Part shown: in pieces, positions 15,905-27,454 of the stretch
Numbering within the stretch: the stretch's first letter is position 1
How the letters are laid out: the number at the start of each line of letters is the position of its first letter
Origin: Paenibacillus bovis
GTDB lineage: Bacteria; Bacillota; Bacilli; Paenibacillales; Paenibacillaceae
DNA: 64,000 nucleotides
NCBI RefSeq assembly: GCF_001421015.2
Contig: NZ_CP013023.1
Coordinates: 3,775,501-3,839,500 of the forward strand
Direction: 5' to 3'
Made by a program: the position numbers and the translations under genes
Notes under the pieces: model-generated
Seen by the model: the letters and a program-made list of their open reading frames with translations, nothing else
What the model was told of the DNA's origin: nothing
Database searches by the model: none

Positions 15905-16462
15905 ATGGAAATACAATTTAAGAATACAGTGATCGAAGCCGTGCAGGGTGATATTACCAGAGAGACTACAGATGTTATCGTCAATGCCGCCAATTCCAGC
16001 CTGCTGGGCGGTGGCGGTGTCGATGGAGCGATTCATCGTGCTGGCGGACCGGAGATTCTGGAGGAGTGTCAAAAGATTCGCGCTCGTCAGGGCGGATGCG
16101 CAACCGGTGAAGCTGTCATTACAACCGCAGGCAGACTGCCGGCTCGTTATGTAGTGCATACGGTAGGTCCGGTATGGAATGGTGGCAGCAATGGGGAAGA
16201 TAATTTGCTGCATAACTGCTACCTGAATTCTCTGGCACTGGCTAATGACCATGGAGCGACCAGCATTTCTTTTCCCAATATCAGTACAGGCATCTATGGC
16301 TATCCCAAATCCCAGGCTGCCGATGTAGCGATTCAGGCTATAAAGGAATATGTGCAGCTCAGTGGTAAAGGACATATGCAGCGTATCCGGTTCGTCTGCT
16401 ATGATGCAGAGAATCTGGCACTGTATGAGCAGAAACTGGAGCAGGCTTTTCAGCAGTCCTGA
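15905..16462 (+). CDS. Macrodomain protein, O-acetyl-ADP-ribose deacetylase type (YmdB/MacroD-like)
   Basis: 185 residues covering a single macrodomain. The ADP-ribose loop [20 protein letters not shown] and the second loop ISTGIYGYP match the MacroD class, including the Asn and Asp that help hydrolyse O-acetyl-ADP-ribose or mono-ADP-ribosyl esters. The start has GAAGGAGG upstream. It is monocistronic and ends at the long hairpin at 16487. It is one of three ADP-ribose-handling genes in the window; the other two are at 24.8-26.3 kb. Confidence 0.94.
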
Positions 16463-24383: not shown

Positions 24384-24820
24384 CGTAATATCCCCTTTGT
24401 GTTTGAATAGTCAGATCATAATTGCACAGAAAGATTACTTATTTAGTTATCTTACGAATTGTATCATATCATATATTTATGTTTTATTTTACCTTTTTTT
24501 CAAAATTAAAATTTAATAAGTACTTACTAATGAAGTGACAAATTAAAAAGTACTAAAACACTCTAAACAATCAATTCTCTATTATGAATTTTTCATGTAT
24601 TGTAATCGCATAATAAGATTACAACAAAAAGCCTCGTAGCTATAGATCCTGAATATTCAGGCTTTGTTCTACAGCTATAAGGCTTTTTAATATATTATTT
24701 TATTTATCAAAAATCATTATAGTTGCTTACCCTTTAATTGTTTTTCTACTACCTATCGCACTGCCGTTGTAGATAGTTCTGATACTTATCCAGCTTATCT
24801 TATCCTGTCATAAACCTTTT
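24384..24820. other. AT-rich intergenic region with a terminator
   Basis: No gene is supported. It holds the excalibur gene's 5' region (24384-24470), an AT-rich spacer, and a branched hairpin at 24626-24688 (AAAAAGCCT...AGGCTTTTT with an inner CTGAATATTCAG palindrome) that probably ends the ADP-ribose operon. Confidence 0.7.
24626..24688 (-). terminator. Intrinsic terminator of the NrtR-NADAR-PARG operon
   Basis: Outer AAAAAGCCT/AGGCTTTTT and inner TAGCTATAG/CTACAGCTATA pairing, 130 bases downstream of the last stop. Confidence 0.75.
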
Positions 24821-25747
24821 TTATTCAAATACAGTCTGAAAAGCAGTCATCACTCCACCTGTTTTGGATCGATCCAGGATAGCAAATACGATTTTGTAAA
24901 ATAGCAGACCATATCCTTCTTTGAACAGAATATCATGGAACCAGCGGGCGACCTCTTCTGGACGGTTACGGAATACACCGCAGCCATAGGCTCCGAGAAT
25001 CAGGTTTTCTTCTCCCTGTTCATTCGCTGTCGCCAGAATATAGCGAATACGCTGCTTCATTACCAGCTCAATCTCATGCTCCCGCTCTGGCTCACGTTCA
25101 CGTACTACACCAGCGTTCACCGCCGGGGCAGTTATCATCGATACTTGGTAAGGCTGATCACGCAGCTGTCCCTGATCTTCGCGGAATATGGTTACATCGG
25201 GCGAATAGATCATGTAATCGGAATAGAGACAGCTCTTTTCCTGACGGTTATGCTTGTACATCTCTTCCATTTGTACGATAGCCGGGTACAAGGAAGAAGA
25301 ACGTGCCAGACTCTCTTCCTGCGCCTGACTGCCTCCGAGGAATCCACCACCCGGATTGCGAGCAGAAGCAAAGTTAAGCGCCAGTACATGCTGCTTCTCT
25401 TCATTAACCGCCAGACGCTGCGCGGCTGCGAGTGTGGATTCATTCGTACATTCGATCCGGTTGCGGATCTCCTGATAAATAGCTGCTGTATCCAGTGTAT
25501 CTGCCTGTTCGCGAATACGTGCTTCGACTGCATGCTGAATATCGGGCAGCTCAGATGGACGATACAGTCGTGAATGATCGATAGTATACTTTATCTGATT
25601 ATGGATCGTTATTGTTTCTCCCATTGCATTAATATATTGCCCGTTGTCCAGAATATCCAGGGTTTCCTGCGCCCATCTGGAACGAATCTCTCTGGCTCCC
25701 TGGGTGTTTTTAACTCCCTGTGTAGCGGAATTTATATGTTTGGTCAT
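24821..25747 (-). CDS. TIGR02452-family microbial PARG-like protein (poly/mono-ADP-ribose glycohydrolase fold)
   Basis: 308 residues. The macrodomain-type catalytic loop is seen: NFASARNPGGGFLGGS followed by AQEESLAR, i.e. GGG-X6-QEE with the glutamate pair of PARG enzymes. Later SDYMIYSPDV, TAPAVNAG and ILGAYGCGVFRN form the rest of the ADP-ribose pocket. It should release ADP-ribose from a modified macromolecule. ATG 25747 has AAGGA 9 bases upstream; an ATG three codons earlier touches that site. A GTAAAA hexamer repeat precedes the site. Third gene of the operon after the NrtR-like and NADAR genes. Confidence 0.9.
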   Translation of the reverse strand: MTKHINSATQGVKNTQGAREIRSRWAQETLDILDNGQYINAMGETITIHNQIKYTIDHSRLYRPSELPDIQHAVEARIREQADTLDTAAIYQEIRNRIECTNESTLAAAQRLAVNEEKQHVLALNFASARNPGGGFLGGSQAQEESLARSSSLYPAIVQMEEMYKHNRQEKSCLYSDYMIYSPDVTIFREDQGQLRDQPYQVSMITAPAVNAGVVREREPEREHEIELVMKQRIRYILATANEQGEENLILGAYGCGVFRNRPEEVARWFHDILFKEGYGLLFYKIVFAILDRSKTGGVMTAFQTVFE

Positions 25748-25759
25748 CCTTATCATTCC

Positions 25760-25799
25760 TTACTTTTACTTTTACTTTTACTTTTACTTTTACTTTTAC
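25760..25799. repeat. Hexanucleotide tandem repeat (TTACTT)6.7 in the PARG gene's 5' region
   Basis: Six perfect units plus TTAC. In the mRNA sense it reads AAGTAA repeated and runs directly into the AAGGA binding site of the PARG-like gene. Confidence 0.95.
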
Positions 25800-25835
25800 A
25801 ACTATTATGTTAAAGCTTTGTGCCTGGAGCTATTG

Positions 25836-26333
25836 TTATTTTTGGTGATCAGACAGCAATTGTTCCCTTAGCTCGGTAAGCACTTCTCCCAGCCAGTTGG
25901 TGCCTCGCCAGGTGCTGCGATTATGGACACGGGGGTCTTCTTCAGCCAGTCCAATTCCCCAGATGCGATCGGTAGGGCTAGCTTCTACTAATGTGGTTCC
26001 CTTAGTCGCCAGTAGAGCCTCCAGCAGTTCTTTATTTTGTGTGAATTTGGCATGGTTGCCTTCGTATACGATCTGTCTGGCATGCTCATCCCATACCTTT
26101 TTATCAAAATGCTGTACCTGACGGCCCAGCTGCTTTTGCTGCCTTGGATGTTTGGCAGACCGAATTTTGTCTGCTATTTCCTTATCCCCAAACAGCATTG
26201 CTTTACCGTACATCATATACTGCTCGGCACTATCAAATGTATACTCTCCCACTACAAAAACAGCCGGATACCACTGCGAGAATGGTGACTCACTCCGGTA
26301 AAAAAACGTAAATTTCTCCTTTGGTTTGCTCAT
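25836..26333 (-). CDS. NADAR-family protein (YbiA/RibX-like N-glycosidase)
   Basis: 165 residues, the normal domain length. Signature segments are FFYRSESPFSQWYPAVF, FDSAEQYMMYGKAMLFGD, KIRSAKHPRQQKQLGR, NHAKFTQNKELLEALLAT, ASPTDRIWGIGL and TWRGTNWLGEVLTELRE. Members cleave N-glycosidic bonds of riboflavin-pathway intermediates, and some reverse ADP-ribosylation of guanine. Being next to a PARG-like gene favours ADP-ribose reversal here. Start ATG 26333 has AGAGGGA. The gaps to its operon neighbours are about 90 and 88 bases. Confidence 0.92.
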   Translation of the reverse strand: MSKPKEKFTFFYRSESPFSQWYPAVFVVGEYTFDSAEQYMMYGKAMLFGDKEIADKIRSAKHPRQQKQLGRQVQHFDKKVWDEHARQIVYEGNHAKFTQNKELLEALLATKGTTLVEASPTDRIWGIGLAEEDPRVHNRSTWRGTNWLGEVLTELREQLLSDHQK

Positions 26334-26423
26334 TCTTATCCCTCTTTCCTACATTCATCTGTCTTCTATCTTCTATATATGTTCTGTAAATATTCCTGTT
26401 CTGTCGCTCACCCTTGAACGATC

Positions 26424-27329
26424 TTATGCGTCTTCCCATTCCGGGCGGAAACGATACAGCTGGGAAGGTCGATGTCCTGCGTCACGGGTATATTCATTGG
26501 TAGCCATTACACGCGGAGCGATTTTGCGCCGGAAAGCCGGTGCCAGTAGCTCACGATCCAGAATGGTCTCGTATACCTGTTGTAATGCTGACAGGGTAAA
26601 TAGCGGCGGCATCAGATTAAATACGATATCCGTATATTCTATTTTACTGCGCAGCCGTTCTACTCCATAAGCAATCATTTTGGCATGGTCAAAACCAATC
26701 CCTTCACTTTGCAGCACTTCCCATTCCACACCGGTAATAGTGCCACAATATGTACGGGTTACCTTCACTACTCCGGACAGCTCGATATCCTGATGACGGA
26801 GATGAATATGCACTTCCTTTTCCAGACGGCAGCCATCCGGCAGATGCGTCTTGGTCTCCTGCATAATCCGATAATTCAGCTCGAACCAACGTGCATCCTG
26901 GGCATCTTCTCCAGCACGTACCTGCTGTGTCGAGGAATCGACCAATGCCATATACGAAGTGCTGATCACCCGTGTACGAGGGTCCCGTTCCACCTCTCCC
27001 CACGTATACAATTGTTCCATATAAATCTCGTTCAGCCCTGTTTCGCTTCGCAGTTCACGCGCTGCCGCCTCGTCCAGGCTCTCTTTCATGCCAACAAATC
27101 CTCCGGGTAATGCCCACTGTCCCATAAAAGGATGTTCACCGCGCTGGATAAGCAGCAGTTGAAGCGACTTATCCGGGAGCTTGCGGTAGTTATCCTGTTC
27201 CTGATCTGTAATCGTAAAAATCAGCATATCCGCAGTAACCGAAGGGCGTTCATATATACCTGCATCGTATTGGTCGAGAAACTGCTGTTCGGTAAGCCCC
27301 TGATGATCCAGTGAATAACGATCACTCAT
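26424..27329 (-). CDS. NrtR-like Nudix/winged-helix transcriptional regulator
   Basis: 301 residues. The Nudix domain spans about 30-170 (LLLIQRGEHPFMGQWALPGGF). The Nudix box keeps GFVGMKE and ARELRSETGL, but the consensus REUxEE reads RELRSE, so one catalytic Glu is Ser. That fits NrtR regulators that sense ADP-ribose without cleaving it. The C-terminal part (LPPLF-like MPPLFTLSALQQVYE, AFRRKIAP) is the NrtR winged helix. ATG 27329 has GGAGG. NrtR controls NAD synthesis genes in many bacteria. Here it leads a NADAR-PARG operon, so ADP-ribose may be the inducer. Confidence 0.88.
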   Translation of the reverse strand: MSDRYSLDHQGLTEQQFLDQYDAGIYERPSVTADMLIFTITDQEQDNYRKLPDKSLQLLLIQRGEHPFMGQWALPGGFVGMKESLDEAAARELRSETGLNEIYMEQLYTWGEVERDPRTRVISTSYMALVDSSTQQVRAGEDAQDARWFELNYRIMQETKTHLPDGCRLEKEVHIHLRHQDIELSGVVKVTRTYCGTITGVEWEVLQSEGIGFDHAKMIAYGVERLRSKIEYTDIVFNLMPPLFTLSALQQVYETILDRELLAPAFRRKIAPRVMATNEYTRDAGHRPSQLYRFRPEWEDA

Positions 27330-27398
27330 CCGTATACCTCCATTTATATTAAAAATAATCACACATTCAGAATTAACTTTCTTATCTATATAACTATT

Positions 27399-27454
27399 TA
27401 ACAAATTGTTATTAACATAAAGTTAATATATCAAACAACGAATTTAAATGTCAA
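27399..27454 (-). promoter_or_regulatory. Promoter with overlapping inverted repeats of the NrtR-like operon
   Basis: On the minus strand TTGACA (27454-27449), 18 bases and TATATT (27430-27425) form a sigma-A promoter. The inverted repeat ATTAAC-N5-GTTAAT (27411-27427) overlaps the -10 and start site, and TAACAA-A-TTGTTA (27399-27411) lies just after. The position suits autorepression. Confidence 0.6.

Follow-up and report, generated by a model that had tools for sequence, protein, structure and literature searches.

A conserved operon of an NrtR-family repressor, a NADAR and a bacterial PARG in Paenibacillus bovis, and its tie to NAD resupply

Why would a bacterium keep two predicted ADP-ribose erasers in one transcription unit with a repressor of the family that controls nicotinamide adenine dinucleotide (NAD) metabolism? 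This question is raised by a minus-strand operon of three genes, in the order NrtR-like repressor, NADAR and bacterial PARG (TIGR02452), which is seen in the list of open reading frames (ORFs) of a 64,000-nucleotide stretch of Paenibacillus bovis DNA (contig NZ_CP013023.1, positions 3,775,501 to 3,839,500; the whole stretch is called here the window, and its numbering is used throughout). Comparison with related genomes argues for a conserved operon with an operator on its promoter, for a regulon that joins erasers to NAD(P) genes, and for active sites that are intact. The operon is real, conserved and mechanistically coherent, and its tie to NAD resupply was unexpected; it is probably an autoregulated NrtR-family operon within a small NAD/ADP-ribose regulon that responds to NAD loss and ADP-ribose adducts.

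Three samples bear on the question: (i) a genus sample of 16 genomes, including that of P. bovis itself, in which 16-kb stretches were read; (ii) a family sample of 98 genomes, 8 of them from the genus, in which 'beside' means within 4 kb of the regulator; and (iii) named loci, that is, the best 80 of at least 578 confirmed loci in GTDB species, some of whose stretches end at contig edges. A regulator ortholog is present in 16/16 genus genomes, with the full order regulator-NADAR-PARG in 12, regulator-PARG in one, regulator-NADAR in one and the regulator alone in two. The family search for the regulator returned 45 rows in 42 genomes, from which three partial rows (E ~1e-41 to 1e-44, covering roughly the first 160 positions only) were dropped, leaving 42 places in 40 genomes. 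PARG occurs in 30 of the 98 genomes, drawn from 10 genera, and each time (30/30) beside the regulator, as do 34 of the 46 family NADARs; both erasers accompany the regulator at 28 of its 42 places, NADAR only at 6 and PARG only at 2, so that at least one eraser is found at 36. The order of the cluster is kept even where the surroundings show no wider synteny with the window. The linkage that the initial annotation had proposed to look for, by a test set beforehand, is therefore present in these 98 genomes. That the genes lie together by chance or by hitch-hiking and share no function is what the six repressor places without either enzyme might suggest, but it was rejected, as far as the sample goes, as exceedingly improbable, given PARG's unbroken association with the repressor and the retention of gene order. 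Among the best 80 named loci, the 18 closest regulators, which span Paenibacillus, Brevibacillus, Cohnella, Clostridia and others, are accompanied by both enzymes in 6 cases, by PARG in 4 and by neither in 8 (with the NADAR of L061 split over two frames, one PARG, in Brevibacillus, a short frame, and one of the loci with neither ending at a contig edge); one of the 18, L051, is very probably from the same genome as the genus member G009.

How the operon would be controlled is suggested by its upstream region. When such regions are compared, 9-bp near-palindromes of the form GWTANTAWC recur every 14 bp at or just past the -10 box, and two of these units make a 23-bp palindrome, a size near that of the 27-bp fragment on which the SoNrtR site is known (PMC4666351). 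A simple 7-bp inverted repeat, considered as the operator, was replaced by this palindrome once relatives had been compared. The window's copy (Table 1) is the best match in the 64 kb, every other site having at least three mismatches. Of 27 upstream regions, 20 have a site with at most two mismatches no more than 420 bases from the conserved start motif of the regulator, a number equalled in 0 or 1 of 300 shuffles; in the remaining seven the site is farther up (G006) or before pnuC (five loci), or no start motif was recognised (Acetivibrio, whose operator was recovered by both matrix and pattern). Because the matrix was built from genus sites (15, including the window's), the named loci other than L051 provide an independent test. 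Comparative evidence thus shows the palindrome at 27408-27430 to be the predicted operator. The promoter itself ranks first of 8 promoter-like sites in the region, a number no higher than chance (mean 9.0 in shuffles), and is credible because the conserved operator sits on its -10. The upstream region of G006 (L025) carries, besides, a long run of GATGTA hexamers about 350-420 bases 5' of the start motif, between the motif and the operator.

Table 1. Features of the operon and its control region, in window coordinates
Feature	Position	Strand	Basis
NrtR-family repressor: Nudix-like sensor domain, insert of ~60 residues, C-terminal NrtR winged helix	26424..27329	-	Pfam, PDB matches
NADAR, YbiA-type (catalytic Glu), predicted guanine-ADP-ribose hydrolase	25836..26333	-	Pfam, invariant residues
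Bacterial-type PARG (TIGR02452), GGGFLGGSQAQEE motif, predicted O-linked ADP-ribose hydrolase	24821..25756	-	Pfam, TIGR02452, PDB
Operator palindrome TATATTAAC-TTTAT-GTTAATAAC, 1 mismatch to GWTANTAWC-N5-GWTANTAWC, overlapping the -10 box	27408..27430	-	conserved 5' of the transcription unit in relatives
Second, weaker operator copy in the 14-bp register, 3 mismatches	27394..27416	-	
Promoter: TTGACA (27454-27449), 18-nt spacer, TATATT (27430-27425)	27425..27454	-	promoter scan
Intrinsic terminator 3' of the PARG gene	24620..24695	-	folding versus shuffles

What else this operator precedes suggests what the repressor is for. The exact palindrome is found in 32 of the 98 family genomes (its reversed control in 0/98), namely in 32 of the 40 genomes with the regulator and in none of the 58 without it (hypergeometric 1e-18, uncorrected for kinship). 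By place and neighbour, its 45 exact sites fall into 35 promoters: 21 of nrtR, 8 of a pair of genes encoding an SPFH-domain and an NADK2-like protein, 5 of pnuC-nadR, and one of an ADP-ribosylglycohydrolase (ARG). The last, in G073 (L279:1752-2630), is a gene with a PF03747 match (5e-70) some 230 bases past the operator, and the same repressor apparently controls it. Five species, P. vini, P. mesophilus, P. helianthi, P. dakarensis and Cohnella terricola, have the operator ahead of pnuC-nadR-nrtR, and in three of the five NADAR and/or PARG come next; Bacillus sp. FJAT-28004 (L061) has remnants of pnuC and nadR in the interval from the operator to nrtR. In P. bovis, exact or one-mismatch operators precede both the operon and the SPFH-NADK2-like pair, the promoter of which (G000:C1:3754949-3755023) has two, one of them exact; across the genus, 11 of the 16 genomes have an operator with at most one mismatch at this promoter. 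Because the same operator precedes pnuC-nadR and the SPFH-NADK2-like pair, the repressor appears to be tied to NAD metabolism, and the unit to be broader than a de-ADP-ribosylation operon; the reading of the initial annotation is borne out in part, by the gene linkage and by the intact catalytic residues, and was too narrow in scope.

The SPFH-NADK2-like pair of P. bovis lies outside the window, at G000:C1:3752923-3755023 (L247:3924-6024). The profile of its second protein matches mitochondrial NADK2 structures (4e-10), and the protein carries a GQDG motif, where NAD kinases usually have GGDG. Outside the family, in Clostridia bacterium PG1894_211 (L072:5051-9992), nrtR, a 697-residue frame, SPFH and NADK2-like genes form one same-strand run, the last two lying about 2 kb 3' of nrtR, behind the 697-residue frame.

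Does the regulator sense ADP-ribose? Its Pfam matches (NrtR_WHD, PF21906, 1.3e-17; NUDIX, PF00293, 2.2e-16) and its relatives by sequence in the PDB (AraR, 5bs6; SoNrtR, 3gz5) bear out the assignment to NrtR made at the outset, and its score with NCBIfam NF050029 (ADPR-responsive repressor NtrR), 160.7 bits, lies below the 400-bit cut-off, so that it is not filed as an equivalog of that model. Within the ADP-ribose site the residue compared was the phosphate-contacting arginine: R63, which corresponds to SoNrtR Arg41 in our mapping from the PDB-search alignment, is invariant in 17/17 aligned regulators, including a pncA-pncB paralog. In SoNrtR this arginine contacts the ADP-ribose phosphate, and two NrtRs lose DNA binding when ADP-ribose is present (PMC4666351); by analogy, we infer that ADP-ribose would be the inducer here. 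The Nudix box of the window's regulator is RELRSETGL, in which the first Glu of EE is replaced by Ser, as had been noticed initially. This replacement is shared by 6/16 genus members (the window's and the five nearest, 78-96% identical), but it is not a general feature of the regulators: because 10/16 genus orthologs and 14 of the 18 closest named-locus regulators keep EE, loss of the box is, judging by these alignments, a trait of some lineages, among them the window's clade. With the box intact in those 10 orthologs, some genus regulators may also hydrolyse their ligand. A second NrtR of P. bovis (263 residues; L036:8002-10920) has as neighbours pncB and a pncA-like gene of the isochorismatase family, and directly before it is an operator-like site of weaker matrix score (18.2).

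Both enzymes keep the catalytic residues that were compared, as far as alignment can tell. NADAR (Pfam NADAR, 6.9e-55; relatives in the PDB by sequence, 8bau and E. coli YbiA) has E37, K44, R71, W81, E117, D122 and W125 invariant in 13/13 sequences; in our mapping to 8bau, made from an alignment with a 2-residue offset, these correspond to E43, K50, R79, W89, E125, D130 and W133 of the Phytophthora NADAR, which contact ADP-ribose or take part in catalysis (PMC11543638). Because residue 117, at the E125 position, is Glu (13/13), the protein belongs with the YbiA subfamily. The DarT1-NADAR toxin-antitoxin systems (PMC11543638) share a NADAR eraser with this operon; here, by contrast, no DarT adjoins the genes, and the NADAR has the Glu of the YbiA type rather than the Asp of the DarT1-linked BC4488 type. 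A DarT partner was unmatched in the genome of P. bovis, as the initial annotation had noted for the window, and matched in 1/16 genomes of the genus; that candidate was dropped. PARG (PARG_cat_microb, 3e-52; TIGR02452, 3.4e-86 and 289 bits against a cut-off of 50; bacterial PARG structures 5zde, 1.1e-53, and 3sig, 1.2e-52) has GGGFL and AQEE invariant in 13/13, which places it with the bacterial-type PARGs. Since, in relatives, ADP-ribosylation of guanosine in RNA is reversed by NADARs and 2'-OH RNA adducts by PARGs (PMC11833690), the two enzymes would be expected to cover complementary linkages.

A number of observations weigh against a regulon that couples erasers to NAD supply, or limit how far it extends. 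In G015 the syntenic site has the regulator by itself, which looks like a loss of the two enzymes; 12 of the 46 family NADARs are located elsewhere, and six of the 42 regulator places, as mentioned, have neither eraser. In the fetched stretches of the other 62 of the 80 named loci, mostly those of distant regulators, our profiles found neither enzyme, so the coupling would belong to one NrtR subfamily. When one mismatch is allowed, the operator pattern gives 39 matches in 16 genomes (nrtR 19, SPFH promoters 16, elsewhere 4) and its reversed control 19; because this pattern is noisy, the operator argument rests on exact matches, and, owing to kinship among the genomes, the P values imply more independence than there is. 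The NADK2-like partner of SPFH matched no Pfam family, and a nadR protein search, run with no positive control, found 0/16 in the genus. Nor is the ligand readable from the family alone, since C. glutamicum NdnR responds to NAD and AraR to arabinose (PMC4666351); and cross-talk with the pncA-pncB paralog is possible, given its similar, weaker operator. Finally, NADAR scores well over the cut-off of TIGR02464, a riboflavin-intermediate N-glycosidase model. This last score would fit metabolic housekeeping, in which NADAR and PARG clear by-products of NAD turnover (reactive riboflavin intermediates, and ADP-ribose conjugates that are free or form spontaneously) while NrtR balances NAD supply, and so would the pncA-like and pncB genes beside the NrtR paralog and the nadD-like and NAD kinase genes that adjoin distant regulators from the same search. 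Such housekeeping is nevertheless unlikely: no riboflavin genes are among those identified behind the 35 operator promoters, and the presence of PARG and, in one case, of ADP-ribosylglycohydrolase in the regulon favours ADP-ribose conjugates over riboflavin.

An NAD/ADP-ribose regulon responding to NAD loss and adducts, the preferred reading, could operate as follows. At rest, a repressor dimer would occupy the 23-bp palindrome that covers the -10 box and keep the operon low, as position and family suggest. NAD breakdown, or the use of NAD in ADP-ribosylation, would raise free ADP-ribose, which, if SoNrtR is a guide, would bind the Nudix-like domain and make the repressor leave the DNA. NADAR could then take ADP-ribose off guanine, and PARG could clear ribose 2'-OH, phosphate-end and other O-linked sites, activities known in relatives; in parallel, pnuC-nadR, where present, would be freed, allowing nicotinamide riboside to be taken up and NAD remade, and the SPFH-NADK2-like pair would be freed too, possibly restoring NADP. 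The adducts would most likely come from outside ADP-ribosyltransferases, because the genome has no DarT match and the operon no transferase. A search for PARP-family proteins, as a sign of the cell's own poly-ADP-ribosylation, gave 0/16 genus genomes, but its control was equally silent and the result carries no weight. Speculatively, an ADP-ribosyltransferase or NADase of outside origin, from a phage or a competitor, is what usually sets the response off. Going further, it is possible, though tentative, that the system is an NAD-loss alarm, in which one ADP-ribose-sensing repressor jointly induces nucleic-acid erasers (NADAR acting on bases, PARG on sugar and phosphate ends, and in some cases ARG) and NAD/NADP rebuilding (PnuC-NadR, and an NADK2-like kinase that SPFH anchors at the membrane), a response dedicated to attacks that ADP-ribosylate or that destroy NAD. 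If the regulon works as described, bacteria would have a response in which ADP-ribose adducts are repaired while NAD is resupplied, and the SPFH and NADK2-like pair would be part of it.

Alternatively, the operon could be a dedicated defence that reverses the ADP-ribosylation which toxins of phages or competitors inflict on host macromolecules, with NAD resupply secondary, as has been proposed for ARG-centred Nudix/WYL systems: PMC9503650 predicts the same logic for ARG with a Nudix repressor and no coupled transferase. PARG can serve as an immunity protein against RhsP2 (PMC11833690), and NADAR-domain proteins are discussed among defence proteins (PMC13092281). Consistent with defence as well, NADAR, PARG or both are missing beside the regulator in 4/16 genus members, and among PADLOC models NADAR matches the candidate-defence family PDC-M42C (3.2e-46) and the regulator, weakly, PDC-S07 (1.1e-5). 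The repressor's other targets (NAD salvage and the NADK2-like gene), however, fit a house-keeping NAD regulon; the PARG, SPFH and NADK2-like proteins matched no PADLOC model; NADAR reaches 47.2 bits against a cut-off of 240 with NCBIfam NF053876 (NADAR anti-phage protein, DS32); and ten neighbouring window proteins that were scanned belong to ordinary families (a two-component pair, YceI, Excalibur, binding-protein transport, acetyltransferase; one without a Pfam family), with only weak PADLOC matches to generic domains (best 5e-9). Defence as the dedicated purpose is thus somewhat unlikely.

How much of this had been foreseen? Systems centred on ARG and repressed by Nudix or WYL proteins, occasionally with NADAR or Macro, were predicted to be ADP-ribose-induced and to counter viral ADP-ribosylation (PMC9503650), so that the idea of the initial annotation was already in print for a sister system. 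Those systems, reported for actinobacteria, planctomycetes and proteobacteria, among others, likewise have a Nudix helix-turn-helix repressor, an ADP-ribose eraser, no coupled transferase and proposed induction by ADP-ribose, with NADAR or Macro sometimes present. Here, in contrast, the core is PARG and NADAR, ARG being found under an exact operator in 1/98 genomes (G073); the phosphatase, chaperone and nuclease partners of those systems were not identified, and the regulon adds pnuC-nadR and the SPFH-NADK2-like pair. The main text of PMC9503650 has no word beginning PARG, TIGR02452, PnuC, SPFH or NAD kinase, although, because it spells ARG '(Poly)ADP-ribosylglycohydrolase', some overlap of ARG and PARG is possible. 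The operon works like these systems but, having PARG in place of ARG, is not classed as one.

Other known systems each share a part of the arrangement. NrtR regulators of NAD metabolism (PMC4666351) have the same Nudix-like domain and winged helix, a palindromic operator and NAD salvage targets; here, unlike in those described, the targets include ADP-ribose erasers, the insert (Table 1) separates the domains, and many members have an intact Nudix box. The Deinococcus radiodurans operon shares a bacterial-type PARG, which there adjoins RNA/DNA ligase and kinase/phosphatase genes rather than NrtR and NADAR (PMC11833690). Phage NADARs beside the NAD salvage genes NadM and NadV (PMC9503650) show the same link between NADAR and NAD resupply; these, however, are phage genes, and the passage on them names neither PARG nor a Nudix repressor. 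Literature searches on TIGR02452 or NADAR with PnuC (nothing on the subject by title), on an NrtR regulon in Paenibacillus and on a bacterial NADK2 and SPFH operon found none, an absence that is weak because subscription papers lay largely outside the search. Nudix-controlled ADP-ribose-eraser systems, then, were already predicted; the PARG-NADAR core, the operator and the tie to NAD resupply are new. NADARs and bacterial PARGs thereby gain a regulator, an operator and partner genes, and the trigger becomes approachable through what derepresses the operon.

On viral contigs, 7 of 80 Nudix or NrtR-like loci have NADAR nearby (L131, L167, L189, L191, L192, L194 and L200), and PARG was found in the fetched stretch of none of the 80; viral contigs thus carry phage versions of a similar Nudix-NADAR pairing.

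As to layout, the regulator ORF has 301 residues (from the ATG at 27329, or more if the in-frame TTG at 27404 is the start), NADAR 165 and PARG 311, with gaps of about 90 and 80 bases between genes. The terminator folds with -33.3 kcal/mol (z = -7.7; 0/200 shuffles equal), and together with three same-strand ORFs and the promoter at the regulator it agrees with the single operon described initially. A macrodomain gene at 15905, also pointed out there, is present (Pfam Macro, 3e-49); a search for a tie to the operon found none, its roughly 400 upstream bases containing no operator (best match 5 mismatches). Immediately 5' of the PARG start, at 25760-25799, is a hexamer repeat of 6.7 perfect TTACTT copies, which does not occur in the corresponding gap of G003 or G006 and which may possibly serve to tune expression.

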